Shown: positions 15,462 to 43,766 of the stretch, piece by piece | How positions within the stretch are numbered: position 1 is the stretch's first letter | How the letters are laid out: each line of letters begins with the position of its first letter | NCBI GenBank assembly: GCA_947177165.1 | Contig: CAMWTP010000010.1 | Span: 1 to 64,000, forward strand | Direction of reading: 5' to 3' | Origin: an uncultured Lachnospiraceae bacterium | Lineage (GTDB): Bacteria > Bacillota > Clostridia > Lachnospirales > Lachnospiraceae | Length of the DNA stretch: 64,000 bases | Program-made: the position numbers and the translations under genes | The notes under the pieces: generated by a model | Databases searched by the model: none | Told to the model about the DNA's origin: nothing | Seen by the model: the letters and a program-made list of their open reading frames with translations, nothing else

Positions 15462-16068
15462 GTGCGCTCGTAAGCGGAACCCATTTGTTCCGCGCGGGCT
15501 TGTTTGTAATCTATCTTTAGCAAGATAGTAGGTTCAATGTGAGGGTTTCATTTGAAGCCTAATTCCTATCATCAACCGACTTATCCAAGAGGGAAACCCG
15601 ACGGGGAGTATAGCATGTCGGTAACGGTGCTATTCAGCCAGTTATCGGGCTGTGAACGGGCATCAAGATGAAATGTCATGTATGAGGTTAAACAGCTACA
15701 CTGCTTAAATGACAGCCAGAGGGGCTTTATCGTCAGCACTGACGGAAGATAGCTATTATACGTCAGGCAGTGCAGGGTGTACGCAGAGTTTGCGAACTGC
15801 GTCTACACATCACATTCCGCACTGACCAGCCGCAATAAGCGGAAAACGGCGAACGTCATAGCCGACAACATGACACGCTTGTACAGACAAGTCTAAACGA
15901 GGATAGCCTAAACAGGAACGCTTACCATTTTAAGCTATGGCATACAGTGCCTGAATATCCTGCATGGCTACGGAGTCTCCATAGTAGTCCGAGGCGGTAA
16001 TACCGTTCACATGGCGAAGGGAGACAGCTATACGACTGAAATAATTTAGGAAAGGTGTGTGAGACACT

Positions 16069-21783: not shown

Positions 21784-21919
21784 CATTAGAAGGTTTCAGG
21801 ACTTCTCCATCTAATGGGTTTACAGGTTTATGCCAGGACTTTGGTGTAACAGTCAGTATGAGGCCGTATTAACTATTGTCTGATGCACTGGACGGCCTGT
21901 AAAACAGTCCGGTGCATCA
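21784..21919 (+). promoter_or_regulatory. Two hairpins in the 300-nt leader of virB4
   Basis: The gap 21697-21996 has no good gene. It carries a hairpin at 21784-21816 (CATTAGA/TCTAATG, with inner AGAAG/CTTCT as an alternative) and a stronger one at 21881-21919, where 13-base arms (TGATGCACTGGAC and its partner) pair with a single G-U pair. Neither is followed by a T run. The leader is unusually long for this packed operon, suggesting translation or processing control of virB4. Confidence 0.5.
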
Positions 21920-21996
21920 GGGCAGGCCATATATGTTTTAACAGGACAGGTTTATTATATTTTGTGATGCCGCAGGGCACGGATAAGGAGGCAGTA

Positions 21997-24363
21997 TTGG
22001 GATTATTTACAGACGGTTTTAAGGAGCTTAAAAAGGCGGACGAACCGCTTTACAGGACGCCAGCGTCCATACAGGAAACGATAGAGATCTTAAAGATTTC
22101 AGAAAGCGGCATTTTTGAGGTCTCAAAAAACAGGCACTCAAAATGCTACCGTTTCCAGGACATCAATTATACAACGGCCAACGAGGAGGAGCAGATCAGC
22201 ATCTTCGAGCGGTACTGCAGGTTTTTAAATTCGCTGGACGTGAATTTCAAGATTACGGTTAACAACAAGAACAAGGACATGGAGGAACTGCGCAGCAAGG
22301 TATTTCTGCAGCCGCAGCCGGACGGTTTTGATGATTACCGGGGCATCTACAATGACATCATGGAGCAGAAAATCCGTGAGGGCAGGCAGGGAATCCAGCA
22401 GGAGCGCTATCTTACCATCACCATTGAGCGCAAGAATTTTGAGGAGGCGAAAGCGCAGTTTGCAACCATCGAGGCATCGGTCCACAAGGCGTTTAACGAG
22501 CTGGGGGCGGGGATCGTGCCGCTTTCGGGGAATGATCGGATCAGGGTGCTGTATGACTATTACCACCTTGGGAAAGAGAACGGGTTTGACTTTGACATCA
22601 GGGAGGCGGAGAAAGTCGGGGCGGATTTCAGGAATGACCTGTGCAACGGGATGCTGCAGTTTTTCCCGGATTATTTCAGGGATGAAAATAAATTCTGCCG
22701 CGCGCTTTTTATCAAAAAATACCCGTCAAGCCTGTCTGACAGGTTTTTGAATGAGATTGTGTCCCTTCCAATCCATTCCGTCACCAGCATTGACATCGTA
22801 CCGATCCCGAAGGACATGACAACAAAAATCTTGCAGAAGAAATATCTCGGCATCGAGTCGGACATCATCAGGCAGCAGCGGGTGCGGAACAAAAACAATG
22901 ATTTTTCCTCGGAAATCTCCTACAACAAGCGTATCGAGAAAAAGGAGATTGAGGGCATCATGGACGACGTGAGGGAGAACGACCAGTGCCTCTTCTATGC
23001 AGCGGTGAACATGATCCTCATGGCAGACACGAAGGAGGAGCTCGACAGCATGACAAAGACGGTGGAGACCATCGGCAAGCGTCATTCCGTAACGATTGAG
23101 GAGCATTACCTGAAACAGAGGGAGTCGCTCAATACCGTACTCCCGATCGGCGTAAGACAGGTGGAAACCATGCGCACGATGCTGACGCAGAGCCTTGCGG
23201 CGCTCATGCCCTTTAACGTGCAGGAGTTAAATGATAAGGGCGGCAGTTATTACGGTATCAACCAGGTCAGTAAAAACATCAATATCGGGAACCGGAAAAA
23301 GCTGATCAACGGAAACGGCTTTGTGTTCGGCGTGCCCGGTTCCGGCAAGTCCTTTTTCTGCAAGATGGAGATGGGGAGCGTGTTTCTGGGCACGAAGGAC
23401 GAGATCATCATTATTGATCCCATGAATGAGTATTTCAATATCGCTCACACTTACGGAGGTACAGTGGTCAACATGAGCACCTATACGGAGAACTATGTCA
23501 ATCCCCTCGACATGGATGTGTGGAGCCTTGACTTAAACGACAGTAAGGGAATGATACGGGAGAAGGGTGAGTTCATGCTGGGGCTTTGTGAACAGTGCAT
23601 GGGCGAGGGGCTCAATTCCCGCCAGAAGTCCATTATTGACAGGTGTGTCAGAAAGCTTTATATTGACGTCGCAAAAAGCAGGGAAAAGCATATTCCCGTG
23701 ATGTCCGACTTTTATGATATCCTGATGGCACAGCCGGAGGAGGAGGCAGGCGACATCGCGCTTTCCCTTGAGCTGTTTGTCAACGGATCCCTGAATATTT
23801 TTAACCATCATACGAACGTTGACGTGGATAACCGCTTTACCGTTTACGGCATACGTGACCTTGGCACGGAACTCTCACCGGTCACGATGCTTGTCATGAT
23901 GGAGAGCATCCAGAACCGCATCATTGCAAACGGGAAACGGGGTATTGCAACATGGCTTTACATTGACGAATTTCATATTCTCTTAAATTCCGAGTATTCC
24001 GCAAAATATTTACAGCAGCTCTGGAAAAAAGTGCGGAAGCAGGGCGGTTTATGTACCGGCATCACGCAGAACATACTTGACCTGCTGCAGAATTATACCG
24101 CGACAACCATGCTTGCCAATTCCGAGTTTGTGGCGCTCTTAAAGCAGGCAAATACGGACAGTTCGCGTATGGCGGAGGTCATCGGCGTGTCGGAGGCGCA
24201 GCTGCAGTATGTCACAAACACCGAAAGCGGGAAGGGACTGTTGAAATGCGGGAATGTGGTCATACCTTTTGATAACACCATAGGAAAAGGGAGCAGGCTC
24301 TACAACCTGTATAATACCAATATCCACGAGATTGCGGAACAGGAAAGGAAGGACAGGTTTTAA
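21997..24363 (+). CDS. virB4: VirB4/TrsE-type conjugation ATPase
   Basis: This 788-residue protein is the VirB4 ATPase of the transfer channel. Walker A is GVPGSGKS (445-452) and Walker B is YIDEFH with D657-E658. The N-terminal block KCYRFQDINYTTANEEEQ and SLDVNFKITVNNKNKDM are characteristic of the TrsE-like group. I chose TTG 21997 since aaggagg ends 5 bases ahead and the family's start (GLF...ELKKADEPLY) begins there; the open frame extends upstream through a hairpin that is unlikely to be coding. It ends before a strong terminator. Confidence 0.9.
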   Translation: MGLFTDGFKELKKADEPLYRTPASIQETIEILKISESGIFEVSKNRHSKCYRFQDINYTTANEEEQISIFERYCRFLNSLDVNFKITVNNKNKDMEELRSKVFLQPQPDGFDDYRGIYNDIMEQKIREGRQGIQQERYLTITIERKNFEEAKAQFATIEASVHKAFNELGAGIVPLSGNDRIRVLYDYYHLGKENGFDFDIREAEKVGADFRNDLCNGMLQFFPDYFRDENKFCRALFIKKYPSSLSDRFLNEIVSLPIHSVTSIDIVPIPKDMTTKILQKKYLGIESDIIRQQRVRNKNNDFSSEISYNKRIEKKEIEGIMDDVRENDQCLFYAAVNMILMADTKEELDSMTKTVETIGKRHSVTIEEHYLKQRESLNTVLPIGVRQVETMRTMLTQSLAALMPFNVQELNDKGGSYYGINQVSKNINIGNRKKLINGNGFVFGVPGSGKSFFCKMEMGSVFLGTKDEIIIIDPMNEYFNIAHTYGGTVVNMSTYTENYVNPLDMDVWSLDLNDSKGMIREKGEFMLGLCEQCMGEGLNSRQKSIIDRCVRKLYIDVAKSREKHIPVMSDFYDILMAQPEEEAGDIALSLELFVNGSLNIFNHHTNVDVDNRFTVYGIRDLGTELSPVTMLVMMESIQNRIIANGKRGIATWLYIDEFHILLNSEYSAKYLQQLWKKVRKQGGLCTGITQNILDLLQNYTATTMLANSEFVALLKQANTDSSRMAEVIGVSEAQLQYVTNTESGKGLLKCGNVVIPFDNTIGKGSRLYNLYNTNIHEIAEQERKDRF

Positions 24364-24416: not shown

Positions 24417-24450
24417 CTGTGCAGGCAGAAATTATTTGGAGGTGGCAGAA

Positions 24451-25281
24451 GTGGAAAAGACCATATTTAATGTAGTCTCGTACTCCGGGGGAAAGGATTC
24501 GACGGCGATGCTTCTTAAGATGATCGAGCAGGGAATGCAGATCGACTGCGTCCTGTTCTGTGACACGGGGCTGGAATTTCCCCAGATGTATGAACACATC
24601 GACAGGGTTGAGCGTGATACGGGCCTGGACATAACAAGGGTAAGGCCGGACATGCCCTTTGAGTACCTGATGTTTGACAAGCCCATAAAGAGGAGGGACA
24701 GTTCCCCGGTCAAAATAAAATACGGAGCTGGCATGACCGGGCACGGGTGGCCGGGACCAAAAATGCGGTGGTGCACCAGGGCGCTGAAAGACACGCCGAG
24801 GGAGCGCTTCCTGAAAGCATTCAGACCTTATTACGAGATGCGGTATTATGTGGGGATTGCGGCGGACGAGACAAAAAGGCTGGAGAGAAAGACCAACCAG
24901 AACCCGGCTCACGTACATCCGTTAGTGGAATGGGGAATGACGGAGGCGGACTGTCTTGAATACTGCTACAGTAAAGGATATGACTGGGGCGGGCTGTATG
25001 AGCTGTTTGACCGCGTATCATGCTGGTGCTGTCCGCTGCAGCCGCTGGAAGATTTAAGGAAACTGCGGGTGCATTTCCCTGAACTGTGGGAGCAGTTAAA
25101 GGGGTGGGACGACAGGAATTTCCGCACGTACAAGCCGGATTACACTGTCCGGGAGCTGGAGATGCGTTTCCAGTTTGAGGAGGAGTGCATACGCATGGGA
25201 AAACCGATACGTGGAAAAGAATTCATGGCAGAGCTGCGGGAGCGGCTTGACGCAGGCAGAGACGGCAGAAGGGAGGCGTGA
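24451..25281 (+). CDS. PP-loop PAPS reductase-like protein
   Basis: This 276-residue protein has the PP-loop SGGKDST at 12-18 and matches the phosphoadenosine-phosphosulphate reductase-like family carried by phages and ICEs. Two Cys-containing blocks, MRWCTR (about 108-113) and SCWCCP (about 192-197), may bind metal or sulphur. I chose GTG 24451 because ggagg at 24438-24442 is correctly spaced; TTG 24436 is less likely. It ends just before a methyltransferase gene. In mobile elements these proteins are suspected of nucleic-acid or nucleotide modification rather than sulphate reduction; this one is not linked to dnd genes here. Confidence 0.8.
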   Translation: MEKTIFNVVSYSGGKDSTAMLLKMIEQGMQIDCVLFCDTGLEFPQMYEHIDRVERDTGLDITRVRPDMPFEYLMFDKPIKRRDSSPVKIKYGAGMTGHGWPGPKMRWCTRALKDTPRERFLKAFRPYYEMRYYVGIAADETKRLERKTNQNPAHVHPLVEWGMTEADCLEYCYSKGYDWGGLYELFDRVSCWCCPLQPLEDLRKLRVHFPELWEQLKGWDDRNFRTYKPDYTVRELEMRFQFEEECIRMGKPIRGKEFMAELRERLDAGRDGRREA

Positions 25282-28763: not shown

Positions 28764-29342
28764 TTGGGAAAAAAGTACAAAGCGGTATACGCGGATCCGC
28801 CATGGGCTTACAAAGTCTACTCCAAAAAGGGCGAAGGGAGGAGTGCGGAAAACCATTACCATACCATGGATATTGAAGAGATACGGTCATTACCGGTGGA
28901 ATCTATTGCCGATGATGACTGTATCCTTTTTTTGTGGGTGACGTTTCCCTGCCTCCTGGAAGGGCTTTCGGTCATGAAAAGCTGGGGGTTTACCTACAAG
29001 ACCTGCGGCTTCAACTGGGTTAAGCGCAATAAGAAATCAGACACTTTCTTCATGGGGCTCGGTTTCTGGACACGCTCCAATTCCGAGCTCTGTCTTCTCG
29101 GCACACGGGGCAGGCCAAAGAGGGTGTCAAAGGCAGTCCCGCAGGTGTGTGATGCAAGGATTATGGAGCACAGCAGGAAGCCGGACGAGATCAGGGACAG
29201 GATCGTGGAATTATGCGGCGATGTCCCGAGGATAGAGCTGTTTGCAAGGCAGAGGCATGAGGGATGGGACTGCCTTGGTAATGAGATTGACGGAAAAGAT
29301 ATCAGGGATGCGATACGGGAGGTTATGGAATATGGGGGCTGA
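28764..29342 (+). CDS. MT-A70 family DNA N6-adenine methyltransferase
   Basis: This 192-residue protein has DPPW at 11-14, the catalytic motif of the MT-A70 family, followed by the conserved [14 protein letters not shown] block (about 32-45) and [12 protein letters not shown]. The C-terminal part holds [19 protein letters not shown] and [17 protein letters not shown], both standard for the family. The start is a TTG. The 3' end overlaps the giant gene by 11 bases. As an ICE-encoded orphan methylase it may protect transferred DNA or control element genes. Confidence 0.9.
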
Positions 29343-32300
29343 CAACAGGGTAAACATGCTTTATGACGAAGCGCTGCGCAGGGTTTCCGGCGGACAGGAG
29401 CAGTGGAGGGAGGCCTGTAAGCTTGCAGGGCAGCTGTACCGTTATGAGTTTGACAACATCCTCATGGTGTACATGCAGCGTCCGGAAGCCACACTTGCAG
29501 CTGACTATGACACGTGGAAGAAAGTCGGGCGGTATGTAAAACGCGGGAGCCGTGGAATCGCAGTCTTTCCATCAAGGGCGCTGAAAGCGGAAGTCCGTTA
29601 TGTATTTGACATCAGTGACACAGGGGGCCGGGAACAGGAACTGACATGGAGGCTTGACGGTTCCAGTATCCCGGCATATGCGGATTACTTACGAAATGAA
29701 GGCTCATGGAAAGAAAAAGCGGACAGCGGGAAAAGTCCCACGGAAAAAGAATCGGATCTGGAACTCATAAAATCCTTTACAGACGGGCAGATCAGAGTCA
29801 TAATGGAATCAGAGTTTACAGACAGAATTAGTAGGTTTGTGGATTCGACAGGTAAAAAAGGCAGGATTGCAGTGGAGCTGCTGACAAGGAGCGTCATGTC
29901 CGCAGTATATACAAGGTGCGGTTTTGAGATCCCGCCCAAAGTGCAGGACCTCTCCCTGATCAGGGAGTTTACTCCCGGGGAGGCAGCCTGCATGGGAAAC
30001 CTTGTAAGCGACATATCCTGTGAGGTGCTGAAAGGCATTGCAAGGGATTTGAAACAGACTGAAAAGAAGGAAAGGAGTGCTGCTTATGGAAGAAATACTG
30101 CTGACATACCACGAGGGGGAGGACGGGATGTTCTACCCGGATCTGGAACTCCCGGTGGAGAAAGTGTCAATGACAAAGCTGGGGAGGTTCGCATTCCGGG
30201 CGGCGGAATATCTGAGGGAGAACCACAAAGACCGCTACAAAACGCTGGTGCGTCTGGGAATGCTGGGAGAGACAATGCAGGCGCTGGAGGAGGAGGCTTA
30301 CAGAATGATGGAGCTTCTGGAAAGGGATTACCTGGAAAAGAACCCGCTGCAGGATCCGGAGTCCACAATGGAGATGTGGCAGCTGCGGGAACAGGCACGG
30401 ATGCAGGCGGAGGAGACCGTAATGTCGGAGATCGTGATGAAGTACCACTAAGCGGGGATGCGTCAGGGGAGGATGCGTTAAATGAAAATTCAGTAATGGA
30501 AACAGTATCAGACGGGGAAAAGGGAAGCTTCAGGCAGGCTTCCTTTTTCATTGCACCAGATGGCAGCGTGGGAATGCCCGAAAAAGCAGAATCTGTCCTC
30601 AACGTCCCCCGTGAGTGCATAAGACACGCACTCATGAGCGACAGCGGTTTTTCCTATGGAAAACGGAGGATTTATGAGACCTTCCATCAGACTTCCGGCA
30701 CGGCGGAGCGTATCAATGTGGTAAAAAGGCTGTACGGGGAGTCCGGGCGCTCCATTGAATGGAACGGGACGGCGCTGGGCTATGACACGTACTGTCCGGG
30801 AGGAATGCATTTTACATGGTCTGAAAATGGAACCGCCAGAGAGGGGTATGTAAACTGGGATGCCATTATTCGGGAGCTGGACGGGCTTGTCAGGTCAGGG
30901 GAATATTACGTCCCGCCCGCAGATTTTGATCCGGATAAAGTATCTTCCCGTCTCTGGCAGGAACCGGCAGACCAGTTTTTTAATGGATGTTTCTGGCAGG
31001 CGTTTCCCAACACCGCGTTAAAGGAAGTGATGCAGCAGGATATCCCCCTGAGCGATAAAATGCAGTTTGTGGAAAGGGTGTTTACGGATAAAGGCCTTAC
31101 TGTAAGGCGCATTTTTGAAAACCAGTATGGGAAGTGTGAAGTGGAACGCGACCGGGACGGTATCACCATTGATTTCCCGGACGGAGACGGGAAAAAGTGG
31201 CGGGCATCACTGGACTGGCAGGACTGCGCCGCATACATCAGCGACATGGTTTCATGCGGCGCGTACCATACAGAATGCAGCTATGCACAGTATGAAGGAA
31301 GTGATGCGGATAAAAAGGACAAAAAACAGGCGGACGGACTAAAGAAGTACACACAGGAATTTTTTGCAGAGACACCAGAAATAAGACAGCAGCGGCGTGT
31401 GGAACTGCTCAGGCACGTACTGGAATCTGCAGGGGCCGCCGGCATAAGCGCGGCATGGAACGGGGATTTCGACAAGGCTGCCATATGGAACGAAAACGGC
31501 GAGTGGCACGGCAGGCGCGCCTATGAATATATCGTGGAAAACTGTCCCGGATTAAAAATCTGCATCAGCAGGGAGGAGCTGGAGCAGTTCCGGCACGATG
31601 CCGCCGCAAGCCTCAACCTGAACAAGGAACGCTTCCTGTACAGGAAAAATCCTGTGGAAATACCAGACGTACCGGATAAGGATGATCTGAATGAGGAGCA
31701 GCTGTGGACCGGGAGACTGATGCGCTATTTCAGGGAAGAGCCCGGCTATACCGCGGTACAGACACTGGTCTATGATATTTTTACCACGAACCTTGACATG
31801 AAGATAAAGGCGGATTTCCTCGCCGACATATACGGCAGGCCGCATGAAGGATTTGCCAGGCTGGAGAAAACGGAAGGGACCGGCGACAGCATCAGGAGGG
31901 ACAGGGACGGCATAACTGTTTCCTATATAAAGCCGGATGGTACAACAGGGGAGCACAGGGCGGATTATGGGTACTGTGCGGCACTTGTCATGCGCATGAT
32001 CGAGGAAGATGAATATCTTGGCGAAGGCATTTATGAACGCTTCCAGGAGACGCCGCAGTCCTTCATGGCGGCGGACTGGTTCATGGAGATTTATCACAAA
32101 TATCAGGAAAAGATGGAGGCGGAACCAAACTTTACAGTGCTGCAGATGCCGGAAACGTGGGAAGATCCTAAAGTGTTATCGGAGACGGAAACGACCAAAA
32201 AATTTGAAACGGTGCAGTCTGATATTGCAGAAGCAGGAGAGACGGAAATAAGCCAGCCTGCAAGAACAGTATCAGGACAATCGGAGGCAGAGCCGGGACG

Positions 32301-35300
32301 GCCGGAGCCAGAACCAGCCGTGGAATCCTCAGCAATGCAGCCTGGCGCAGAATCAGAAAGTCCGGATTCCATGCATATAGAACCGCTTCCGCCGGAAAAC
32401 CAGCCATCAGGTGAGAATTTCCATTTTGATGGTTCCGACATAAAGAAGTCAAGCCTTCCAAAGGGCGGGAAGGCTGGCCAGAAAACCAGATACCAGTGGA
32501 ACGTGGAAGCTGTCAGACTTTTAAAGAAGATCGAATATGAGGAGCGTCCCGCCACACCGAAGGAGCAGAAGATTCTTGCGCGGTACGTTGGCTGGGGCGG
32601 TATCCCGCAGGCATTTGACGGAAAAAACGAAAACTGGCAGAAAGAATATGCAGAATTAAAAGAACTTCTCTCCGACGGGGAATACAGCGATGCCAGGGAT
32701 TCCGTCAACACGGCATTTTACACCGATCCCGCCATTACCGGCGCCATTCATGCAGCACTGAAACAGTTCGGCTTCAACGGCGGCAGTATCCTGGAGCCCG
32801 CGATGGGCACCGGGAACTTTTTCGGGAGCCTGCCCGGTGAATTTTCAGACAGCAGGCTCTATGGCGTGGAAAAAGACAGTATCTCAGGCAGGATTGCGAA
32901 ACTTCTCTATCCGAAAGCGGAGATCAGTATCTGCGGTTTTGAGGAGAAGCAGTATCCTGACAATTTTTTTGACGTGGCAGTCGGCAATGTGCCCTTTGGT
33001 GATTACAGCCTCCATGACAAAAGGTATGCAAAGCATAAATTCCGTATTCACGACTATTTTTTTGCAAAGACACTCGACAAGGTAAGGCCGGGAGGCATTG
33101 CCGCCCTTGTCACAAGCAAGGGGACGCTCGACAAGGCAAACCCTGCGGTACGGAAATATCTTGCTGAGCGCGCGGAGCTCCTCGGTGCCATCAGGCTCCC
33201 AAATACTGCATTCAGGGACAGTGCAGGAACAGACGTGACAAGCGACATCCTGTTTTTTCAGAAACGGGAGAAAAAGACTGTAATAGAGCCGGACTGGGTG
33301 TATCTTGGATATATAGACGACGGGATTCCGGTCAATTCCTATTTTGTGCAGCACCCTGAAATGATGCTCGGCACAATGGAGTATGACAGCCGCATGTTTG
33401 GAAACGGGAGTAAATATACCAGCTGCGTCAACCATGACGAAAGCTTTGACCTGAAAACGGCACTTGAAAAAGCAGTGGAAAATCTGGAAGGCCGAATCAC
33501 GGATGTCATTGGGCTTGTAGACGGTGAAGAAAAGACAGCGGACATCATAGATGCCAGCCCGGATGTGAAGAATTACACCCACACCTTTGTGGACGGAAAG
33601 CTCTATTACCGCGAAAATTCAGTCATGTACCGGAAGGAAGTCCCGGCAGCCATGGAGGAGAGAATCCGCCAGCTGGACGAAATCAGAAATGTCACAAGAC
33701 AGCTCATTTTCATTCAGACAAAGGGATGCAGCATGGAGGATTTAAAATTCCAGCAGGGGATACTGAATCAGAAATATGACGCTTATGTGGAGGAGTACGG
33801 ACCGCTCACGGGGCAGGGGAGCATGCGCGCCTTCCGCGACGACGCGGATTACCCGCTGCTGTGTTCCCTGGAGATTGTGGACAGTGACGGAAAGGTGGGG
33901 AAGGCAGACATGTTCCATAAGCAGACAATCCGTCCCAATATTACGCCGGACAGGGTGGACACGGCGGCAGAGGCGTTAAATGTCTCTGTCTGTGAATATG
34001 GAAGTGTCAATATCCCGTTCATGCTCAGCATTTATGAACCGGATATCAGCAGAGTGTCAGAAAATATCCCGGATCGGAATGCACTTTCTCCCGAAATGGA
34101 GGCAGAGCTGAAACGCGCCGTTTTAGTGAAGGAACTGGAAGGGCTTATTTTCGCTGATCCGGCAGAGTATGACAAAAATAATCCCTGTGCGGGGTGGAAG
34201 ACGGCAGATGAATACCTGTCAGGGAATGTGAGGGCAAAACTGCGGAAGGCGAGAACCCATGCACAGGAGAACGCGGAGCTGTTTGCGCCCAATGTGGAGG
34301 CGCTTGAAAAGGTGCAGCCCAAAGACCTTGACGCGTCGGAGATCGCAGTGAGGATCGGTACGGCATGGATCGAACCGGAGGATTACGAGGCATTTATCTA
34401 TGAACTGTTAAAGACACCCAGAAGGGCGCAGGCGTACCGGAGCCCGTTTAAAAGTTCCGGCATACAGGTACACTTAAACCCTTACAGCATGGACTGGTTC
34501 ATTGAGAACAAGTCGATGGACAAAAAGTCGATAGCGGCGTCGGAAACATACGGGACTTCAAGACTCGACGCCTACTCCATCTTTGAGGAGACGCTCAACC
34601 TGCGCACCGTGACCGTGCGCGACAGGGTTGAGGACGCAGACGGGAAGGTATCCTATGTCATCAATAAGAACGAGACCATGCTTGCAAGGGAAAAGCAGGA
34701 GCAGATGAAGGAGGCGTTTAAGGACTGGATCTTCCGTGATCAGGAAAGGAGGCAGAAATATGTAAAGTATTACAATGAAACCTTCAATAACATCAGGCTG
34801 CGCACGTATGATGGTTCGCACCTCACATTCCCGGGCATGAACCCGGAGATAAAGCTCCGCGACCACCAGAAAAATGCCATTGCAAGGATTCTATACGGAG
34901 GCAACACGCTCCTTGCGCACTGTGTCGGCGCGGGCAAGACCTTTACCATGATGGCGGCCTGCATGGAGCAGAAACGGCTCGGGCTTGCAAATAAAAATGC
35001 AATTGTGGTGCCAAAAGCGCTTGTCGGACAGACCGCAGGGGAGTTCATGCGTCTGTACCCGTCAGCAAATATCCTTGTTGCCACGGAGCGTGATTTTGAA
35101 AAGGACAGGCGCAGACAGTTCATATCGCGCATTGCAACAGGGGACTATGACTGCATCATCATGTCGCACTCGCAGTTTGAGAAGATTCCGGTCTCAAAAG
35201 AGCGCAGGGAGCGGATGCTGGACAGGCAGATTGAGGAACTTGCCAATGCGATTGAAATGACAAAGGAACAGAACGGGCAGCGGTGGACGGTCAAGCAGAT

Positions 35301-37389
35301 GGAAGGTCAGAAGAAAAAACTGGAGGCGCAGCTCAGGGAACTGCTGGACGAAGAGAGGAAAGACGACCTCATAAACTTTGAGGAGCTGGGCATCGACTCC
35401 GTCATGGTGGACGAGGCACATATGTTCAAAAACCTTGCCATCTTTTCTAAAATGAACAATGTCGCAGGCATTTCCAGTTCCGGTTCACAGAAGGCAATGG
35501 ACATGTTCTTCAAGTGCCAGTATATAACGGAGACCAGCGGGAACCGCGGGATTGTTTTTGCCACTGGCACGCCGGTATCAAATACGATCTGCGAGATGTA
35601 CGTCATGCAGCTCTACCTGCAGAAAGACGCGCTGGAACGCATGGGGATCCGCCATTTTGACACATGGGCTGCAAACTTCGGGGAAGTGACGACGGCGCTG
35701 GAGCTCACGGTTGAGGGCAACGGCTTCCGGTTAAAGAGCAGGTTTAACAGGTTTACGAATCTGCCGGAATTAATGAACACATTTAAAGAAACGGCGGATG
35801 TCATAACCTCCGACATGATAAGCCTGCCGGTGCCCAGACTGCGCGGCGCAAAACCCATCATCGTAAACAGTGAGCCGGGGTGGTTCGTGAAAAATGCCAT
35901 GGAGGATTTTGTCGTCAGGGCGGAGCGCATCAGGAACGGACAGGTCGATCCGCAGGAAGACAACTTTTTAAAGATCACCCATGAAGCAAGGCTGCTCGGA
36001 ACGGACGCAAGACTGCTTGAACGTGATGCACCGAATGATCCTGACAGTAAGCTGAATAAAGTGGCGGGGAACGTAGCGGCTGAATATTTTTCAGGGAATA
36101 AAGATGGAAAAACCGGCTGCCAGCTTATTTTTTCCGACATCGGCACACCGAAGGCTTCATGGAGCCCTGACTGGGAGGAAAAGTTTAAGAACGGGGAGAG
36201 GGAGTTTGATATTTACAATTATTTAAAGACGGAGCTTGTAAAGGCAGGAATCCCGGCGGGAGAAATCGCCTTCATACACGATGCCGCGACGGATGCACAG
36301 AGGGACATTCTTTTTAAGGAAATGCGCGCGGGAAAGAAAAAAATTCTCATCGGTTCCACCGATAAATGTGGGACAGGTGTAAATGTCCAGACACACCTGA
36401 CTGCGTTACACCATGTGGACTGCCCCTGGAAACCCTCATGTATCGAACAGAGGAACGGCCGGGGCATCCGGCAGGGGAATGAAAACGCGGAAATTGCGGA
36501 GTACCGCTATGTGACAAAGGGAACCTTTGATGCATACTCGTGGGCGCTGGTGGAAAACAAGCAGCGCTTTATCTCACAGGTCATGACGAGCAGGGCAGTC
36601 TCGCGCACCTGCGAGGATATCGACGAGGCGACGCTTTCCTACGCGGAAATCAAGGCCGTGGCTACCGGGAATCCCAGAATAAAGGAAAAGATGCAGCTTG
36701 AAAACGATGTGCAGCGCTTAAAAGTCCTAAAATCCAGCTATGACAGGCAGCACTATGCCCTCGAGGATAACATCATGATCCATTTCCCCAAAAAGATCAC
36801 GGAGGCACAGGGACGGCTTACCTGTATGCGTGAGGACATCGCAGCGGCGGAGGCGGCATTTCTGGCAGAGCCGGATTTTTCCATTACGGTAGGGAATAAA
36901 AGATACACGGAGCGTGCGGAGGGCGGCAGTGCAGTGATGGAGGCAGCCTGCGAATGTGAGAAGAAAGAGACTGTACATGCGGGAAAATACAGATGTTTTG
37001 AACTTTATCTGGAAAAGGATGCTTTCGGAAATAAAAGCATGATCCTGCGCGGAAGGACAGACCACCGGACAGACCTGTCGTCAAGCCCTGTGGGAAACAT
37101 GGTAAGGCTGGAGAATGTCGTAGAGGGCATGAAACAGACCGCAAAAGACCTAGAAATAAGGATTGAGCAGTACCAGCGCGACATGGAGCAGTCTAAACAG
37201 GAATATGGGAAACCGTTTTCGCAGGAAGCAGAGCTGACAGAAAAGCTTGCCCGACTGAATGAGCTAAATGCGGAGCTTGATCTTGAAAACGGGGCAGTGC
37301 AGGAGATTCCGGCAGAGATACCTACGCCAGAAAACGACAGGGCAGCGGAATCCGGGGTAAGATCTGGAATAAAGCAGCGGGGAAGATAG
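29332..37389 (+). CDS. Giant ArdC / methyltransferase / SNF2 helicase protein
   Basis: This 2685-residue protein is the large LtrC-like protein of Clostridial ICEs. In order: an ArdC-like N-terminal domain (about 5-90); a Gly/Asp/Ala-rich linker (about 250-375); four or so diverged repeats of an unnamed domain (RDRDGIT recurs, about 420-960); a DNA methyltransferase domain with [11 protein letters not shown] (from 1155) and GNVPF (1218-1222); and a SNF2-type helicase with GAGKT (1866-1870), DEAH (2027-2030) and QRNGRG (from 2373). A coiled coil closes it. I chose ATG 29332 behind gggagg. A tnpV-like gene lies inside the linker in another frame. A role in protecting or processing incoming DNA is inferred from the domains. 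Confidence 0.9.
30086..30451 (+). CDS. tnpV: TnpV-like protein nested inside the giant gene
   Basis: This 121-residue frame lies wholly within the giant gene, one frame shifted. It starts with ATG behind aaaggag at 9-base spacing. The product reads like the TnpV family: YPDLELP near 17-23, then [18 protein letters not shown] and [19 protein letters not shown], then a Met/Glu-rich helical end ([13 protein letters not shown]). The host frame here encodes only a Gly/Asp-rich linker with no fold, as expected if it is the overprinted one. TnpV proteins accompany Tn4451-type transposons and are frequent on ICEs; their function is unknown. No transposase gene is next to it. Confidence 0.75.
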
Positions 37390-37546: not shown

Positions 37547-38434
37547 ATGGAAATGACAGCAGATACACAGCTCACAAACGACCAGCAGGTGATGGAGCTG
37601 ATTAAGTTATTAAACCAGAACAATTTAAAGGCAGCCGCCAACAATATATTTGAGATGACGGCGTATGTTGACGTCATGGAGAAAAAAATGGACTCCGTGA
37701 TCCAGGAGCTTGCGTCTGTAAAAGACCAGCTTCACAGAATGGAGGAGCGTAACGCAGAAAAAGGTCTGAAACAGGCAGTCCAGAGGGCAGTAGATAAACT
37801 GGGACAGTGTTATCATGCCGTGAAAGAAAAGATTTCAGGGGTAAAATCAGACATTAAGCAAAAGGCAGGAGAAATCGCGGCGGCGTTTAGGCAGAAAGGG
37901 AAAGAAGCCTTAAACAAGGCAGCGGAATTTCTCGGGATTAAGAAAAAACTGCAGGATATCAGGCAGAACGTGCAGAAGACCATAACAGAAGTGGATAAGA
38001 CAATCGTAAAGATAGACGCCTTCGGCATAGGCATGAGGGAAGCAGGACAGAAAATCGCCAACGCCTTCCGTGCCCTTGTTGATAAGCCTGAAAAAGAATA
38101 CGGGGAAAAGAACTTTTCTAAGACAGGACTGGTTAAGAAACCATTTGAGGCAAAAAGAAAGCTACTGTCCGGCATTTTAAAGTTCACCGACGCAGCCATA
38201 GAAAAAACAGAACAGCTTGCCGCAGATGTGAGACAGTATCAGGTGCATAAGGCAGGACAGGAGAAGGAAAAACGTACAAAAGTGGAAACAGTATTCCCAA
38301 ATTCATCTGCGGTGGAATCCGGATATCAGTATGGTGCAGATGCATTTGAAATGTCTGTAAATAATAATGCAGGAACAGTGATGGATTATAGGAAAAGAGC
38401 GGGAAATAATTTGACAACTGCAAAAAGCAGATAG
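37547..38434 (+). CDS. DUF6674-like ICE protein
   Basis: This 295-residue protein fits DUF6674, a family found at the end of Clostridial ICEs after the giant helicase gene. The N-terminal block LTNDQQVMELIKLL and NNLKAAANNIFEMTAYVDVME (only in part quoted) is characteristic, followed by helical, Lys-rich stretches (AVQRAVDKLGQCYHAVKEKI and others) and a polar tail. No membrane helix or catalytic motif is seen. It is the last intact element gene; the sequence then decays into the pseudogene at 38446. Confidence 0.75.
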   Translation: MEMTADTQLTNDQQVMELIKLLNQNNLKAAANNIFEMTAYVDVMEKKMDSVIQELASVKDQLHRMEERNAEKGLKQAVQRAVDKLGQCYHAVKEKISGVKSDIKQKAGEIAAAFRQKGKEALNKAAEFLGIKKKLQDIRQNVQKTITEVDKTIVKIDAFGIGMREAGQKIANAFRALVDKPEKEYGEKNFSKTGLVKKPFEAKRKLLSGILKFTDAAIEKTEQLAADVRQYQVHKAGQEKEKRTKVETVFPNSSAVESGYQYGADAFEMSVNNNAGTVMDYRKRAGNNLTTAKSR

Positions 38435-38445
38435 AGGGTATCGGA

Positions 38446-38691
38446 GTGCAGGAGAGAAACGTAATGCGAAGCTGTATCTCGTGGAAGAGGATGTGAAATT
38501 CGGGTTCACACCGAAGGCGGCAAAGGAGTATATTCGGCGCAAAATCATGGAAGATGATACAGGGGCATCTAGAAATGGAACATAGATATGACAGAGTGAT
38601 CGAGAAGTATGAAAGTCTTGCATCTGATGCTGTATATAGTAATATGACCGTTCTTACGAAGTGGAAGAAGCAAGCACTGAAAATCGTCTGA
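38446..38691 (+). pseudogene. Decayed partial copy of the gene at 11357
   Basis: GTGCAGGAGAGAAA here repeats the bases around the start of the 11357 gene, and the frame from 38451 reads EKRNAKLYLVEEDVKFGFTP, matching ERNA...MLCLVEEDLKFGLTP there with about 25 codons deleted. A second piece starting at ATG 38575 reads MEHRYDRVIEKYESL, like EKRYDALNEKLKEL in the coiled coil of the same gene. The remnant overlaps the 3' end of the lacI gene on the other strand by 38 bases, so the element border lies within or near it. Confidence 0.7.
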
Positions 38692-39679
38692 TCATTCTGG
38701 TTGAAATCTCGACCTTCGACGGATGGACAACTTTTGTGCCAATCTGCTCGATCAAAAGCTTTGCGGCAGTTGCACCAAGATAATGGCGTGGTACGTCCAT
38801 CGTGGTGAGCGATGGCTCAATGATTCGGCTCTCGGAGATATTGTCAAATCCGATGACTGAGATGTCCTCCGGAATCTTGTAACCATGGAGCATCAGGGCT
38901 TTCATCGCACCGATGGCAATGATGTCGTTGTCTGCAAAATAGCATCTGGCAAGCGTGTCATTTCTATCGATGATTTCGAGCATATCTGCCATGGCGGCTT
39001 CAATGGAGGGGGACAGTTTATGGATGATGGAACGGGATGGAGACATTCCGTTCTCCTTTACTGCCCGGAAATATCCTTCCTGTCTCTGTACAAAGTTTGG
39101 GATGGAATAACTGGACTGCAGATAGCCGGGCTGGTGCCGGGTTGTGCTGATCAGGTAATCTGTTGCGAGATAAGCCCCCTGGGAATTGTTGATGAGGACA
39201 CTGGTGCAGTCAAGGGAGTCAAAATATGTGTCCAGGAGAACCATCGGATATCCCAGCGAAAGGAACTGGCGGCATACCTCCTGGCGCATTTCCGTCCCGA
39301 CAAGAATGATGCCTGCACAGTCGGAAATGCGCAGGTCAGATAAGCAGTCAGCAAGAATATCCGCCTTCTCATAAAACTGCATCATCTTTACTGCAAAGTG
39401 TTCTTTCTGGCATTCGCTTTTCACCCCATCATACAGCTCATTAAAAATAGGGGAATAGGACAGGATGGCATTGTGTGTTTTGTAGAAAAGGATATAGATC
39501 GATCCATTGTGTCCACGGCTGTCCTTAATCCTAGTAAAGTCATATCCGAGCTCTTCCGCTGCTTTCAGGATTTTTGCGCGCGTTTCAGTACTGACACCAG
39601 CTTTGTTGTTTAGTGCCATAGAGACAGCAGTTGCAGATATGCCCAGTTTTTGGGCTAATTCTTTTGCAGTGACGGACAT
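38654..39679 (-). CDS. LacI-family transcription regulator
   Basis: This 341-residue protein is a typical LacI/GalR regulator. Its N-terminal HTH is VTAKELAQKLGISATAVSMALN (about 3-24, shown in part), with the hinge near 45-60, and the periplasmic-binding-like sensor follows to the end (FADNDIIAIGAMKALMLHGY and ISVIGFDNISESRIIEPSLTT are standard blocks). The start has aaggaggg ahead on the - strand. It diverges from the glycoside hydrolase at 40065, across an interval with repeated AATAAAGT boxes, and probably represses it in the absence of a sugar ligand. Its last codons overlap an ICE remnant, so its natural C-terminus may have been altered. Confidence 0.92.
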   Translation of the reverse strand: MSVTAKELAQKLGISATAVSMALNNKAGVSTETRAKILKAAEELGYDFTRIKDSRGHNGSIYILFYKTHNAILSYSPIFNELYDGVKSECQKEHFAVKMMQFYEKADILADCLSDLRISDCAGIILVGTEMRQEVCRQFLSLGYPMVLLDTYFDSLDCTSVLINNSQGAYLATDYLISTTRHQPGYLQSSYSIPNFVQRQEGYFRAVKENGMSPSRSIIHKLSPSIEAAMADMLEIIDRNDTLARCYFADNDIIAIGAMKALMLHGYKIPEDISVIGFDNISESRIIEPSLTTMDVPRHYLGATAAKLLIEQIGTKVVHPSKVEISTRMIRRFSVLASSTS

Positions 39680-39770
39680 GCTGGAACCCTCCTTATTATT
39701 TAAGTTTCATTCTCTGCTCATGACATCAATTTCTAATTTCATGATATCCTACAAATCAAAAGTTATCAAT

Positions 39771-39839
39771 AATAAAGTGAAAAATGAAGCAAACTTCACT
39801 TTATTTTGAATTGCAATAAAGTTTTTCCTATAATAAAGT
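39771..39839. promoter_or_regulatory. Operator-like AATAAAGT cluster
   Basis: The octamer AATAAAGT occurs at 39771, 39815 and 39832, and inverted at 39798-39805; the last three are 17 bp apart. 39771-39780 and 39796-39805 form a perfect 10-bp inverted repeat. The boxes overlap the promoter at 39806-39834 and sit between lacI and the hydrolase gene. They are likely binding sites of the LacI regulator or another local one. The rest of the 39680-40064 interval holds one doubtful small frame. Confidence 0.6.
39806..39834 (+). promoter_or_regulatory. Sigma-70-type promoter for the hydrolase gene
   Basis: TTGAAT (39806-39811) and TATAAT (39829-39834) are 17 bp apart. Two AATAAAGT boxes overlap the spacer and the -10, so occupancy should block transcription. 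Confidence 0.65.
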
Positions 39840-39865
39840 ATTTGTATCTGATTGGATGAGGAAAC

Positions 39866-40012
39866 ATGGCGGGTATGAAACTTGGCTTGTGGGATGAGGA
39901 AATATTTGATACGATAAAATGGAATCATGTCTTGCCCGGGATGGCGGAAGATACGCGCAGACAGAAGTATGACGGATATCAAAAAGCAGTCGTCATGATC
40001 AAAACTGTGTAA
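39866..40012 (+). CDS. Doubtful small ORF between promoter and hydrolase (48 aa)
   Basis: An ATG behind gatgagg opens a 48-codon frame ending 52 bases before the hydrolase start. The product (starts MAGMKLGLWDEEIFD) matches nothing I recognise. It may be a leader peptide or the end of a lost gene. Confidence 0.35.
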   Translation: MAGMKLGLWDEEIFDTIKWNHVLPGMAEDTRRQKYDGYQKAVVMIKTV

Positions 40013-40064
40013 AAAAGTTAAACCGGCATCAGACCGGGAAGCAACAGTAATGTGGAGGTACAGA

Positions 40065-41588
40065 ATGAGACAGTATGAATGTTATGAATTAAGATTAAAC
40101 GGCCCAGCACCTGATGACTTTGTCAGGGCAGATGTGCAGGGAAGTTTTGAAATGAACGGAAAAGAGATAACAGTAAAGGGGTTTTATGCAGGAGACAGTA
40201 CATATATCGTGCGCTATCTGCCGATGGAGTCGGGTGTGTGCAGGTACCGCATAACCGGAGTGGTCGAGACGGAGGGGGAGATTACCTGTGAACCAGCCGC
40301 TGACGGAATCCATGGCATGGTGCGCGCGAGGGATATGCATTTCCAGTACGAGGACGGCACTTATTTTTATCCGTTCGGCACGACAGTTTATGCACTGATG
40401 CACCAGGAGGATGTACTTGTGGAGGAGACGATGGAGAGTCTGAAGGCGGCTCCCTTTAATAAAGTGCGTTTCTGTGTATTTCCTAAGCACTATGATTTTA
40501 ATCACAATGAACCACCAGTCTATGCTTTTGAGAAGAAGGAGGACGGCAGCGGATGGGATGTGACACGTCCCTGCTTTGCCTTTTGGGAAAGGCTTGAGAG
40601 GATTCTGGTACAGATGGGGAAGATGGGCATACAGGCGGATCTGATCCTGTTCCATCCTTATGACCGGTGGGGATTTGCCACGATGCCGCAGGAGGATAAC
40701 CTGGTCTATCTGGATTATCTGATGCGCCGTCTTGCCGCGTTTCCGAATGTGTGGTGGAGTCTTGCAAACGAGTATGACCTTTGCGGGGCAAAGTCGGTGA
40801 AGGACTGGGAAGAGATCGAGGAGTATGTAGCGGAACAGGATGCGCATCATCATCTGTTGTCATGTCATAACTGTTTCAAAAACTGGGATTTTACCCGTCC
40901 GAATGTGACGCATGCAAGTATCCAGTCCAAGGTGCTGAATAAAGTTTCCGAGTGGCGCAGGCAGTACAACAAGCCGGTCGTGATCGATGAGTGCTGCTAT
41001 GAGGGAAATATCCAGCATATATGGGGCAGCATCTCGGGAAAAGAAATGGCAAACCGTTTCTGGCGTGTGGTTACGATGGGTGGATACTGCACGCACGGGG
41101 AGACTTTTCTGGATCCGGATCAGGAGATACTCTGGTGGAGCAGGGGCGGCAGGTTAAAAGGAGAGAGTCCGGCGCGTATTGCCTTTCTGCGCAAAATTGT
41201 GGAGGAGCTTCCAGGTCCGCTCGAACCGGCGGAGAACTGGATCGTGAAGATACTCCACATATCGCCGGAGGAGAAAGAACAACTGCGGCAACAGGCGGAT
41301 CCTTTTGTGAAGGCGATGCTGCAGATGGACAGTGGGGAACTGGCAGATTTCACTTCCAGTGAGTTTGTGTATCAGGGGCACTGCGGGGAGGACGCCTATC
41401 TGACTTTCTATGATCTGCGCACTTGTGCGGAGGATGTACTGGAACTTCCAGAGTCACACAAATACAGAGTGGAGTTGATTGACACATGGAATATGACCAG
41501 GACAGTGCTGCTGGAAAATGCGAGCGGCAGGACAAAGCTGTCGCTTTCGGGCAGGGAGGGAATGGCTGTTCTGGCAGTTAGAAAATAG
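40065..41588 (+). CDS. Clan GH-A glycoside hydrolase (DUF5060/DUF5605 type)
   Basis: This 507-residue protein has a DUF5060-like N-terminal beta domain (about 1-85), a TIM-barrel (about 90-380) and a C-terminal beta domain of DUF5605 type. Likely catalytic residues are Glu236 in WWSLANE (acid/base) and Glu309 in VVIDECC (nucleophile), the usual Asn-Glu and Glu arrangement of clan GH-A. No signal peptide is present, so it acts inside the cell. I chose ATG 40065 behind ggaggt. It is the only gene between the LacI operator cluster and the TetR/MATE pair. The substrate is unknown. Confidence 0.8.
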   Translation: MRQYECYELRLNGPAPDDFVRADVQGSFEMNGKEITVKGFYAGDSTYIVRYLPMESGVCRYRITGVVETEGEITCEPAADGIHGMVRARDMHFQYEDGTYFYPFGTTVYALMHQEDVLVEETMESLKAAPFNKVRFCVFPKHYDFNHNEPPVYAFEKKEDGSGWDVTRPCFAFWERLERILVQMGKMGIQADLILFHPYDRWGFATMPQEDNLVYLDYLMRRLAAFPNVWWSLANEYDLCGAKSVKDWEEIEEYVAEQDAHHHLLSCHNCFKNWDFTRPNVTHASIQSKVLNKVSEWRRQYNKPVVIDECCYEGNIQHIWGSISGKEMANRFWRVVTMGGYCTHGETFLDPDQEILWWSRGGRLKGESPARIAFLRKIVEELPGPLEPAENWIVKILHISPEEKEQLRQQADPFVKAMLQMDSGELADFTSSEFVYQGHCGEDAYLTFYDLRTCAEDVLELPESHKYRVELIDTWNMTRTVLLENASGRTKLSLSGREGMAVLAVRK

Positions 41589-41703
41589 CTGTTTTGCCAG
41601 TCCTGGATCGAACAGCAGTCAAAGAAATTGCGGAGTGATTACGCGGCTATAGGGACTGCAGATGGGTGACTGCTTTGTGTGTTCGCCAGGTGCATATAAG
41701 AAT

Positions 41704-42276
41704 TCAATACATAAGTGACAGCATTTGTTGGCAGAATGAAAACTGACGTGTCAGAAGATGAAGAAGTTCGTCTTCTGATTCACGGCAGTTGTTATTCAGC
41801 CATTTTTGCAACATGGCAGTCAGACCTGCAATAAAAAATGTCTGGCAGTAGTCATATTCTAAAAAACTGTTTATCTTGGATTGTTGTATGAATTTTTGCA
41901 GTCTCAGGTCAGAATATTGTAGCAACGCATAATCAAAGATTTTTGGTTGGTGCTTGTTGGAAAGATATATCCGGTAAAAATCCTGATGCTCTTTAATAAA
42001 AGCAAATAAATGTAAAAAGCGTTCCTGAAGCGAATAATCTTTTCCAGGAACAGTGAAAATGATTGTAAAATAGTGATACATATCAGATTCTATGCATTGC
42101 ATTAATTCATAAATGTCTTCATGATGCAAATAAAAAGTAGTTCGGTTGATGTTAGCCACATTGCAGATTTCTCTTACTGTAATTTTGGAAAGCTCTTTCT
42201 TTTTCATCATATCCAAAAAAGTATCTCGTATAAGTCTTTCTGTCTGTTGAAAACGCAAGTTATTTTTAGAATTCAT
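41704..42276 (-). CDS. TetR-family regulator
   Basis: This 190-residue protein has a TetR HTH at about 10-57, with KITVREICNVANINRTTFYLHH the recognition region (listed only in part), and a ligand domain with few conserved features. It diverges from the MATE exporter gene 147 bp away and probably represses it. The 41589-41703 gap after the hydrolase holds nothing clear. Confidence 0.88.
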   Translation of the reverse strand: MNSKNNLRFQQTERLIRDTFLDMMKKKELSKITVREICNVANINRTTFYLHHEDIYELMQCIESDMYHYFTIIFTVPGKDYSLQERFLHLFAFIKEHQDFYRIYLSNKHQPKIFDYALLQYSDLRLQKFIQQSKINSFLEYDYCQTFFIAGLTAMLQKWLNNNCRESEDELLHLLTRQFSFCQQMLSLMY

Positions 42277-42368
42277 GAATCCTCCATCTTGATAATATAT
42301 CTTTGCAGCAGGATGTCTTATATAAAAAATAATATCGATTAACTCAACACATGATGCTATATTGATGA

Positions 42369-42397
42369 TTGTACTACACTTAAATTCAATTTACAAT
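42369..42397 (+). promoter_or_regulatory. Promoter of the MATE gene
   Basis: TTGTAC and TACAAT are 17 bp apart. AATTC...GAATT around the -10 gives an inverted repeat that could be the TetR operator. Confidence 0.55.
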
Positions 42398-42422
42398 GGA
42401 ATTATAAAGGAGGACAACAGAC

Positions 42423-43766
42423 ATGAAAAAAAATGAACAATTGCTACAAAAAGGTTCTTTTATACAGATGGTAACGAATCTTTGTGTACCTACGATCGTG
42501 ATTATGCTGGTGATGGTCATTTACAATATGGCAGACACTTATTTTATCGGAAAGACAGGTGATCCTAGTAAAATTGCGGCAGTATCATTATGTGGTCCGA
42601 TATTTAGTATTTTATCCGGGCTTGGCACACTTCTCGGAAGTGGAGGTTGTACTGCAGTATCACTTGCTCTTGGTAAAAAGGAATACAATAAGATAAAATC
42701 ATATACCAGTTTATGCTGTTATGGCTCTCTGGCGATCGGGTTCATTTTTTCTGCTGCAGTACTTACAAATCTAAAAGGTATCAGCACTGCAATCGGGGCA
42801 AATGCTGATACGCTTGAGTATACTGGTACATATTTACGGATTCTGGCATTGGGAGGGCCTGTTATTTTATTTGGAAATGTTGTCAATAATCTGATACGCG
42901 CAGACGGCTCCGCAAAACAGGCTATGATATCTAATGGACTGGGAACAATTGTCAATATCATTTTGGATCCACTTTTGATTTTGGGATTTGAGATGGGAGT
43001 CGCCGGAGCAGCGGCCGCGACAGTGACCGGAAATATAATCAGTTTCCTGTATCTGTTTTGGTATATAAAGAAAAAGCAAACAGTATTTTCGCTGAGTATC
43101 AGGGATCTGTCTTTGAAAAAGGAGATAGTCCTGCCGATAGTGTCATTGGGACTTCCATTGGCATGCAGTACTATCATGATGAGTTTTTCCCATATGTTTA
43201 TGAATCATATACTGGCAGGATATGGATCTGTCACAGTAGCAGCAAGCGGAGTGGCAGGAAAAGTTTCGATGGTTGTATCCATGGTTGCCATGGGTGTGTG
43301 TATGGGGCTACAGCCTGCAATTTCGTATAACTACGGAGCAGGAGAATATAGCAGAATGTATAGGATCATGCGTAATCTTGGTATTATGACAATCATTGTA
43401 GGAAGCATACTGACAGCGGGATGCCTGATCGGAAAAAGATATCTGGTAGCTATGTTTATCGAACATGATGAAGTAATCAGGCTTGGGGAGGAGATGGTGG
43501 TGGCCTCCATGTTAATGGGGCCTTTTTATGGGCTTTATCAGCTATGCACTACGTTTTTGCAGTCCACAGGAAAGGCATCTTATGCTACGGTGGTGGCGCT
43601 GCTTGACAAAGGAATTATTTATTTGCCAATGCTCTTTGGGCTAAATGCATTATTTGGTTTAAATGGCGTAATCTATACAGCGCCGTTCACAGACATGTTG
43701 TCTTTGCTGGTGGGGGCAGTATTATGTTTGGTATGGAATAGGACACTTCGGGCGCCGTCTTGCTGA
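42423..43766 (+). CDS. MATE-family multidrug/cation antiporter
   Basis: This 447-residue protein has twelve membrane helices and MATE features: the start MVTNLCVPTIVIMLVMVIYNMADTYFIG (given only in part as IYNMADTYFIGK, about 38-49), LSGLGTLLGSGG, and the repeated half after residue 240 (LGLPLACSTIMMSFSHMFMN). It exports drugs or organic cations in exchange for Na+ or H+. A strong aaggagg lies ahead of the ATG. The last 94 bases run over the end of the AraC gene on the other strand. It and the TetR gene split the sugar region and may be a separate resistance module. Confidence 0.92.
   Translation: MKKNEQLLQKGSFIQMVTNLCVPTIVIMLVMVIYNMADTYFIGKTGDPSKIAAVSLCGPIFSILSGLGTLLGSGGCTAVSLALGKKEYNKIKSYTSLCCYGSLAIGFIFSAAVLTNLKGISTAIGANADTLEYTGTYLRILALGGPVILFGNVVNNLIRADGSAKQAMISNGLGTIVNIILDPLLILGFEMGVAGAAAATVTGNIISFLYLFWYIKKKQTVFSLSIRDLSLKKEIVLPIVSLGLPLACSTIMMSFSHMFMNHILAGYGSVTVAASGVAGKVSMVVSMVAMGVCMGLQPAISYNYGAGEYSRMYRIMRNLGIMTIIVGSILTAGCLIGKRYLVAMFIEHDEVIRLGEEMVVASMLMGPFYGLYQLCTTFLQSTGKASYATVVALLDKGIIYLPMLFGLNALFGLNGVIYTAPFTDMLSLLVGAVLCLVWNRTLRAPSC

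Follow-up and report, generated by a model that had tools for sequence, protein, structure and literature searches.

The window (the whole stretch of DNA that was analysed, 64,000 nucleotides) carries a giant helicase gene with a second gene, tnpV, nested in another of its reading frames (Table 1). A preliminary description of this DNA had read the inner frame as a TnpV-family protein with a start of its own, and the profile search bears this out: the frame encodes a TnpV over its full length (Pfam PF14198, E 7.5e-22, 77.8 bits against a cut-off of 27), with residues 8-117 of 121 aligned to profile positions 2-111 of 111. The start with its Shine-Dalgarno motif also stands, although the spacing to the ATG is 8 bases and not 9 as first given; a GTG at 30077 is an alternative start (124 codons, as compared to 121 from the ATG). 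tnpV sits in the helicase frame at offset +2 (position 1 of a helicase codon is position 3 of a TnpV codon), and the helicase frame is uninterrupted by stops across the whole overlap.

Table 1. Features of the helicase-tnpV locus in the window
Feature	Positions	Strand	Basis or remark
Giant ICE helicase gene	29332..37389	+	ATG 29332 is the start common to relatives; ResIII and Helicase_C above Pfam cut-off
Helicase N-terminal domain, ArdC-N-like	29395..30066	+	match to own profile A3; Pfam ArdcN E 0.0013, below cut-off
tnpV Shine-Dalgarno AAAGGAG	30071..30077	+	sequence; ATG 8 bases further on
Nested tnpV gene	30086..30451	+	open frame, 121 codons + stop; PF14198 match; nested homologues in helicase loci
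Helicase linker sharing bases with tnpV	30088..30450	+	helicase position 1 = TnpV position 3
Helicase core, ResIII match	34846..35433	+	Pfam, aa 1869-2064
Helicase C-terminal domain (Helicase_C)	36259..36477	+	Pfam, aa 2340-2412

Called mechanically, the helicase ORF runs from TTG 29242 to 37389 (2,715 codons). Its core domains exceed the Pfam cut-offs (ResIII with 33.2 bits, Helicase_C with 32.3 bits); the N-terminus stays under the ArdcN cut-off (19.4 bits, cut-off 22.6) and does match our own profile A3, and the linker has no match in Pfam at E 0.01. The window tnpV is located on a mobile element with the gene set expected of an ICE, including conjugation genes for a relaxase (9747-11378), a coupling protein (14217-15473) and a TraG-like ATPase (21883-24363). 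The coupling-protein ORF aligns to positions 31-312 only of the T4SS-DNA_transf profile (468 positions), and the reverse transcriptase/maturase of a group II intron comes after it (16069-17880), which suggests that the intron is placed in the coupling-protein gene. Other genes include a PAPS-reductase-domain ORF inside the conjugation region (24436-25281), an MT-A70 methyltransferase gene (28764-29342) sharing 11 bases with the helicase start, and a DUF6674 gene (37547-38434) followed by genes for a LacI-type regulator, an apiosidase-like glycoside hydrolase and a MatE transporter (38654-43766), so the ICE-like part may end at about 38.4 kb. A DNA search for distant relatives in phages and plasmids, using window positions 29242-31342, gave no match.

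Searching genome contigs with the TnpV protein, we found 13 loci, 12 of which are nested at the same offset. The host frames of these 12 close relatives span 684-2,875 codons from stop to stop, and TnpV identity goes from 84 down to 43%; the thirteenth (L020) is a free-standing TnpV with six stops in the +2 frame. Three loci (L019, L021 and L022) have an insertion directly before tnpV that leaves both frames open and brings a new site of type AAAAGGAG (L023, the sole locus from one scan of viral contigs, lies on a contig as long as that of L019 and was dropped as a copy). In surveys, 299 genomes of the family were searched with a TnpV alignment (120 genomes with a match) and 299 genomes with the Pfam TnpV profile (155 with a match), and loci were taken from at most the 30 best matches per search. 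The window's own genome has nine TnpV matches, including a second nested TnpV (L006, contig C171) whose host is a very different giant helicase, again at offset +2. A third helicase N-terminus in this genome (L118, contig C212) is ended by the contig edge.

The N-terminal domain of the helicase was then used as the query, with one L006 protein and alignment A3 (26 rows), both built from nested loci, in 200 genomes (46 with a match), 246 genomes from the order (77) and 398 from the phylum (26); 36 further helicase-domain places were added, picked for divergence or for filling gaps. The pooled set contains 152 loci with the domain after removal of five copies (L090, L118, L127 and L150 are cut by contig ends), and a domain was called full if at least 200 of its 230 positions were present. 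Among full-domain loci found through the helicase domain, 93 of 97 have a nested TnpV. All search routes together give 123 of 127, which is not an unbiased count as the remaining 30 loci are the window itself or come from searches with TnpV or the L006 region. The four full-domain loci without TnpV are L114, L176, L192 and the non-giant L163, whose frame has 299 codons, and 3 of 21 partial-domain loci have a nested TnpV. Every TnpV that follows the helicase domain within 600 bases is contained in the helicase frame, always at offset +2 (126 of 126; 123 full-domain and 3 partial-domain loci), and no locus has one placed beside that frame. These counts include near-copies (e.g. L033 and L034 with identical TnpVs) and are not numbers of independent events. 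Nested loci among L115-L172 represent 17 family codes from the phylum to which the window belongs. Beyond the pooled count, named records add Cohnella and Virgibacillus (Bacilli), Anaerococcus (Tissierellia; its TnpV is weak, with 23 bits) and another place in Monoglobus (Clostridia).

Stops in the TnpV frame of homologues, named in the preliminary description as counting against its reading, were looked for: 121 of the 126 nested TnpVs have no stop and align to 100 or more model positions, and five cover fewer than 100 (two of these score below 27 bits on our own models). The nesting itself is as first described, but it is not particular to this ICE, given the 93 of 97 full-domain relatives that share it. 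These counts point to tnpV-in-helicase as an old, conserved overlapping gene pair, found in nearly all full relatives examined. Four loci (L157, L182, L201 and L211) have very weak nested TnpVs at the same offset (20-29 bits on our own models), which are either fast evolving or decaying. In another four (L101, L102, L109 and L115), the helicase frame stops 12-41 codons past the TnpV stop with TnpV intact; these are broken or interrupted helicases, a layout indicating that the helicase is able to end there with TnpV kept intact.

We sorted TnpVs into nested ones (57, helicase frame open) and free-standing ones (50, helicase frame interrupted) and compared the two groups (the partial L007, L009 and L090 were set aside, and L114 has no TnpV). 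The +2 frame has no stops in the 57 nested TnpVs as compared to 2-13 (mean 5.96) in the 50 free-standing ones, and synonymous T that would make a stop (before AA, AG or GA) is found at 0 of 1,292 sites in nested and 298 of 1,132 in free-standing TnpVs; the zeros follow from the sorting and are circular, and only the clean separation of 0 from 2-13 is informative. Independent of the sorting, T is also rarer before other codons (567 of 2,581 nested, 1,058 of 2,455 free-standing). G at four-fold third bases is more frequent in nested TnpVs (0.549) than in free-standing TnpVs (0.273) or helicase N-termini (0.253-0.309). We then redrew the synonymous codons 500 times with the TnpV protein fixed, using the codon use of the helicases' N-termini (one locus with an N was omitted). 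The redraws contain 6-7 expected stops in the linker frame, as compared to none observed, and the mean fraction of stop-free draws is 0.0001 for 26 loci of the window type and 0.0007 for 30 other loci (locus maximum 0.006). With 6-7 stops expected and about 0.001 or fewer of the draws stop-free, a chance-open frame was judged unlikely.

The same numbers bear on whether the linker frame is open by accident in a helicase that is really two genes flanking tnpV. Existing annotation offers some support: of five annotated places (in four records), one has TnpV together with an SNF2 gene that starts later, and at two the stretch shown has TnpV but no helicase. Against this, all 126 loci having both keep a single offset and no stop in the helicase frame across TnpV, the mean chance per locus of being stop-free is at most about 0.001, and on the single offset and the redraw statistics we consider a two-gene layout extremely unlikely. 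In detail, NZ_OY725736.1 has the place with TnpV and the later SNF2 gene and another with TnpV and no helicase in the stretch shown, NZ_CP051681.1 has TnpV and no helicase, and NC_013164.1 and NZ_CP033047.1 have the helicase and no TnpV (according to PLSDB tables, which omit pseudogenes and other features, so that a missing gene may be in the original record). The five places in these four records list TnpV or the full helicase and never both, which we regard as an annotation fault.

Codon-position differences tell which frame is held more tightly. In 19 pairs of window-type loci with 75-88% N-terminal identity, positions 1/2/3 of the helicase differ by 0.164/0.120/0.348 upstream of the overlap and by 0.330/0.166/0.113 within it: helicase position 1 (TnpV position 3) becomes the fastest and helicase position 3 (TnpV position 2) the slowest, the reverse of both flanks. 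The flip is also found in the other type and in other identity bins, and it makes TnpV the tighter frame. TnpV third positions differ nearly as much as upstream helicase third positions in the window type (0.330 vs 0.348), so constraint by the linker's own residues is mild there; in the other type the values are 0.255 and 0.397. The linker has about half the hydrophobic residues that TnpV would impose (FILMVWYC fraction of 0.125 and 0.108 in the two sets as compared to 0.19-0.21 in redraws), and the fraction falls in the lowest 5% of draws in 25 of 26 window-type loci and 28 of 30 other loci. Redraws and composition together indicate a linker held open and hydrophilic, as far as TnpV permits. 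Both frames thus look selected, and the linker is, on this codon-level evidence, a stop-free, hydrophilic imprint of TnpV. That TnpV is the constrained frame had been proposed at the outset, and the comparison of substitution patterns confirms it; the companion idea of the linker as a by-product is right in that TnpV is tighter but has to be amended, as the linker is not passive and has fewer hydrophobic residues than TnpV alone imposes. Codon use does not date the frames (0.068 vs 0.070, neither marked as older).

Could the TnpV frame be a conserved relic, its protein no longer made and the frame retained through selection on the linker alone? Within the overlap, TnpV positions 1 and 2 are slow and the slowest of all is helicase position 3, which is opposite to a linker-driven pattern, and 121 of 126 copies are stop-free over at least 100 model positions. 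Given these rates and this coverage, we judged a relic very unlikely.

As for how TnpV would be started, we defined a strict site as AGGAG or GGAGG with a spacing of 4-12 bases to an ATG of the TnpV frame (a looser motif, found in 57 of 57 nested and 43 of 50 free-standing TnpVs, was discarded as too permissive). A strict site is found in 82 of 126 nested and 30 of 50 free-standing TnpVs, and in 31 of 753 control windows taken in the same phase from the helicase sequence upstream; it is absent from 44 nested and 20 free-standing TnpVs. Internal initiation of TnpV is likely on the basis of these motifs. Before its domain begins, the TnpV frame already has an open stretch with a median length of 19 codons (at most 79; 11 in the window), which leaves room for entry by frameshifting, and internal Shine-Dalgarno sites can stimulate frameshifting. 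TnpV might then be made only as the end of a fusion of the N-terminal domain with TnpV, by a frameshift upstream of the ATG and with an early end of the helicase. The median of 19 open codons and the possible role of the internal sites as stimulators speak for such a fusion, but the excess of own sites over the controls, their similar frequency in free-standing TnpVs and the short open stretch in the window speak against it, and we regard it as improbable.

The two genes have a shared history. Distances between TnpVs and between helicase N-termini are correlated at 0.90 over 121 loci (best of 999 permutations: 0.083), and by this measure TnpV and the helicase N-terminus are co-inherited. All 11 inspected domain loci without TnpV (of 22 such) lack the Gly/Asp/Arg-rich linker; the segment after the domain is E/P/Q-rich in L114 and continues into further domains in others. 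The linker had first been explained by capture of a tnpV gene without breakage of the host frame, and the TnpV-less relatives without a linker are consistent with this; with a single offset across the family and co-inheritance, however, any capture is old. A local, recent capture was rejected, since the arrangement is family-wide and co-inherited. In Streptococcus suis ICEs, snf2 genes are reported to harbor inserted cargo that includes tnpV (PMC9815147), and these insertions are a possible lead for the capture route.

Trees of TnpV contain both nested and free-standing members (the trees are unrooted, with few columns and many weakly supported forks). A careful tree of 107 rows needs three changes between the nested and free-standing states, with free-standing groups of 16, 11 and 23 within a connected nested backbone, and a quick tree of 175 rows (leaving out L123 and rows under 90 residues) needs four, at least two of them forced by starred branches. 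With free-standing groups inside a nested backbone, escape from the nested state is possible, and the free-standing genes may have arisen in this way. Two histories fit these trees: one gain of nesting followed by at least two escapes, or ancestral nesting followed by several escapes. Under the second, tnpV would have been born, or at least diversified, overprinted in the helicase linker, with repeated escapes to transposons and mobilizable elements. The nested backbone and the forced branches speak for such an origin. Rooting within a free-standing group would instead give one nesting gain plus escapes, the columns are few and the forks weak, 29 of the 50 free-standing rows were chosen as best Pfam scorers and are a biased sample, and the inspected TnpV-less helicases have no linker, so that no linker to overprint is seen. 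Birth or diversification in the linker is therefore a serious candidate that we put at somewhat under an even chance. The wider proposal, that the TnpV family was ancestrally overprinted in the giant ICE helicase, that free-standing tnpV genes are repeated escapes and that the inner gene shaped the outer linker, is tentative in the same measure.

The reading that we prefer, and consider very probable, is a dual-coding linker with TnpV made from an internal start, the pair having formed by in-frame capture and been inherited as a unit. The helicase frame would be read through the overlap to give a stop-free, hydrophilic and probably disordered linker, and on the same mRNA ribosomes would start internally at the Shine-Dalgarno motif and ATG of tnpV to give TnpV, a small mobile-element accessory protein. 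A tnpV gene would have been captured in frame between the helicase N-terminal domain and the remainder before the sampled helicase lineages split (most simply in a single event), and the pair would have been handed down as a unit since. Nesting would couple the dose and transfer of TnpV to those of the helicase, so that TnpV is likely to assist the helicase in one DNA-processing step (excision, the relaxosome or processing on entry), as far as its placement can tell. More than 100 nested pairs, with free-standing genes as controls, make it possible to measure what double coding costs, how an inner gene shapes a linker and how a gene escapes from overprinting.

Similarity searches with TnpV gave no convincing match in PDB by sequence (best E 0.017) and one PHROGs family (1e-8) with function unassigned there. 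For free-standing TnpVs, we searched chosen neighboring ORFs (38 + 53 of the 184 found) against Pfam. The 38 ORFs, taken around 14 of the 16 free-standing loci that are closest to the window type, include Mob_Pre (6), ParB_N (5), ParM-like ALP_N (5) and Phage_integrase (4); among the 53 ORFs from 24 of the other 34 free loci, no Pfam family is found more than twice. Neighbors of L038, L040 and L042-L053 include ParM-like actin, ParB, Mob_Pre, NikA-like and integrase genes. These neighborhoods hint that free TnpV belongs to maintenance regions of plasmid-like or IME/mobilizable elements, and not with one partner.

Same-strand nested genes are known from bacteria and phages (korA in incC, comS in srfA, Rz1 in Rz). 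As in these pairs, tnpV is a small gene wholly within a larger one, in another frame and with its own start; unlike them, it has a host linker that is missing from the inspected relatives lacking the inner gene, and 93 of 97 full-domain relatives found through the helicase domain share the pair. To our knowledge, long same-strand nested genes with wide and deep conservation have rarely been documented in bacteria. Few overlapping genes are established in bacteria according to abstracts in the overprinting literature (PMC4683798, PMC2268670, PMC9927249), and the literature matches listed, consulted as excerpts (TnpV papers and overprinting papers, with subscription papers and preprints mostly outside), contain no report of a nested TnpV. 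The overprinted genes of E. coli, as summarized in those three sources, likewise give two products from one stretch of DNA (the second product being predicted for tnpV), but they are single loci in one species, whereas TnpV is widespread and has free-standing members. Tn4451 TnpV and its relatives belong to the same family by profile (PF14198) and are also on mobile elements. In the excerpt of PMC3158075, Tn4451 TnpV is postulated to be an excision helper by likeness to lambda Xis, and there it is one of separate transposon ORFs, whereas the window TnpV is nested in the frame of another gene.
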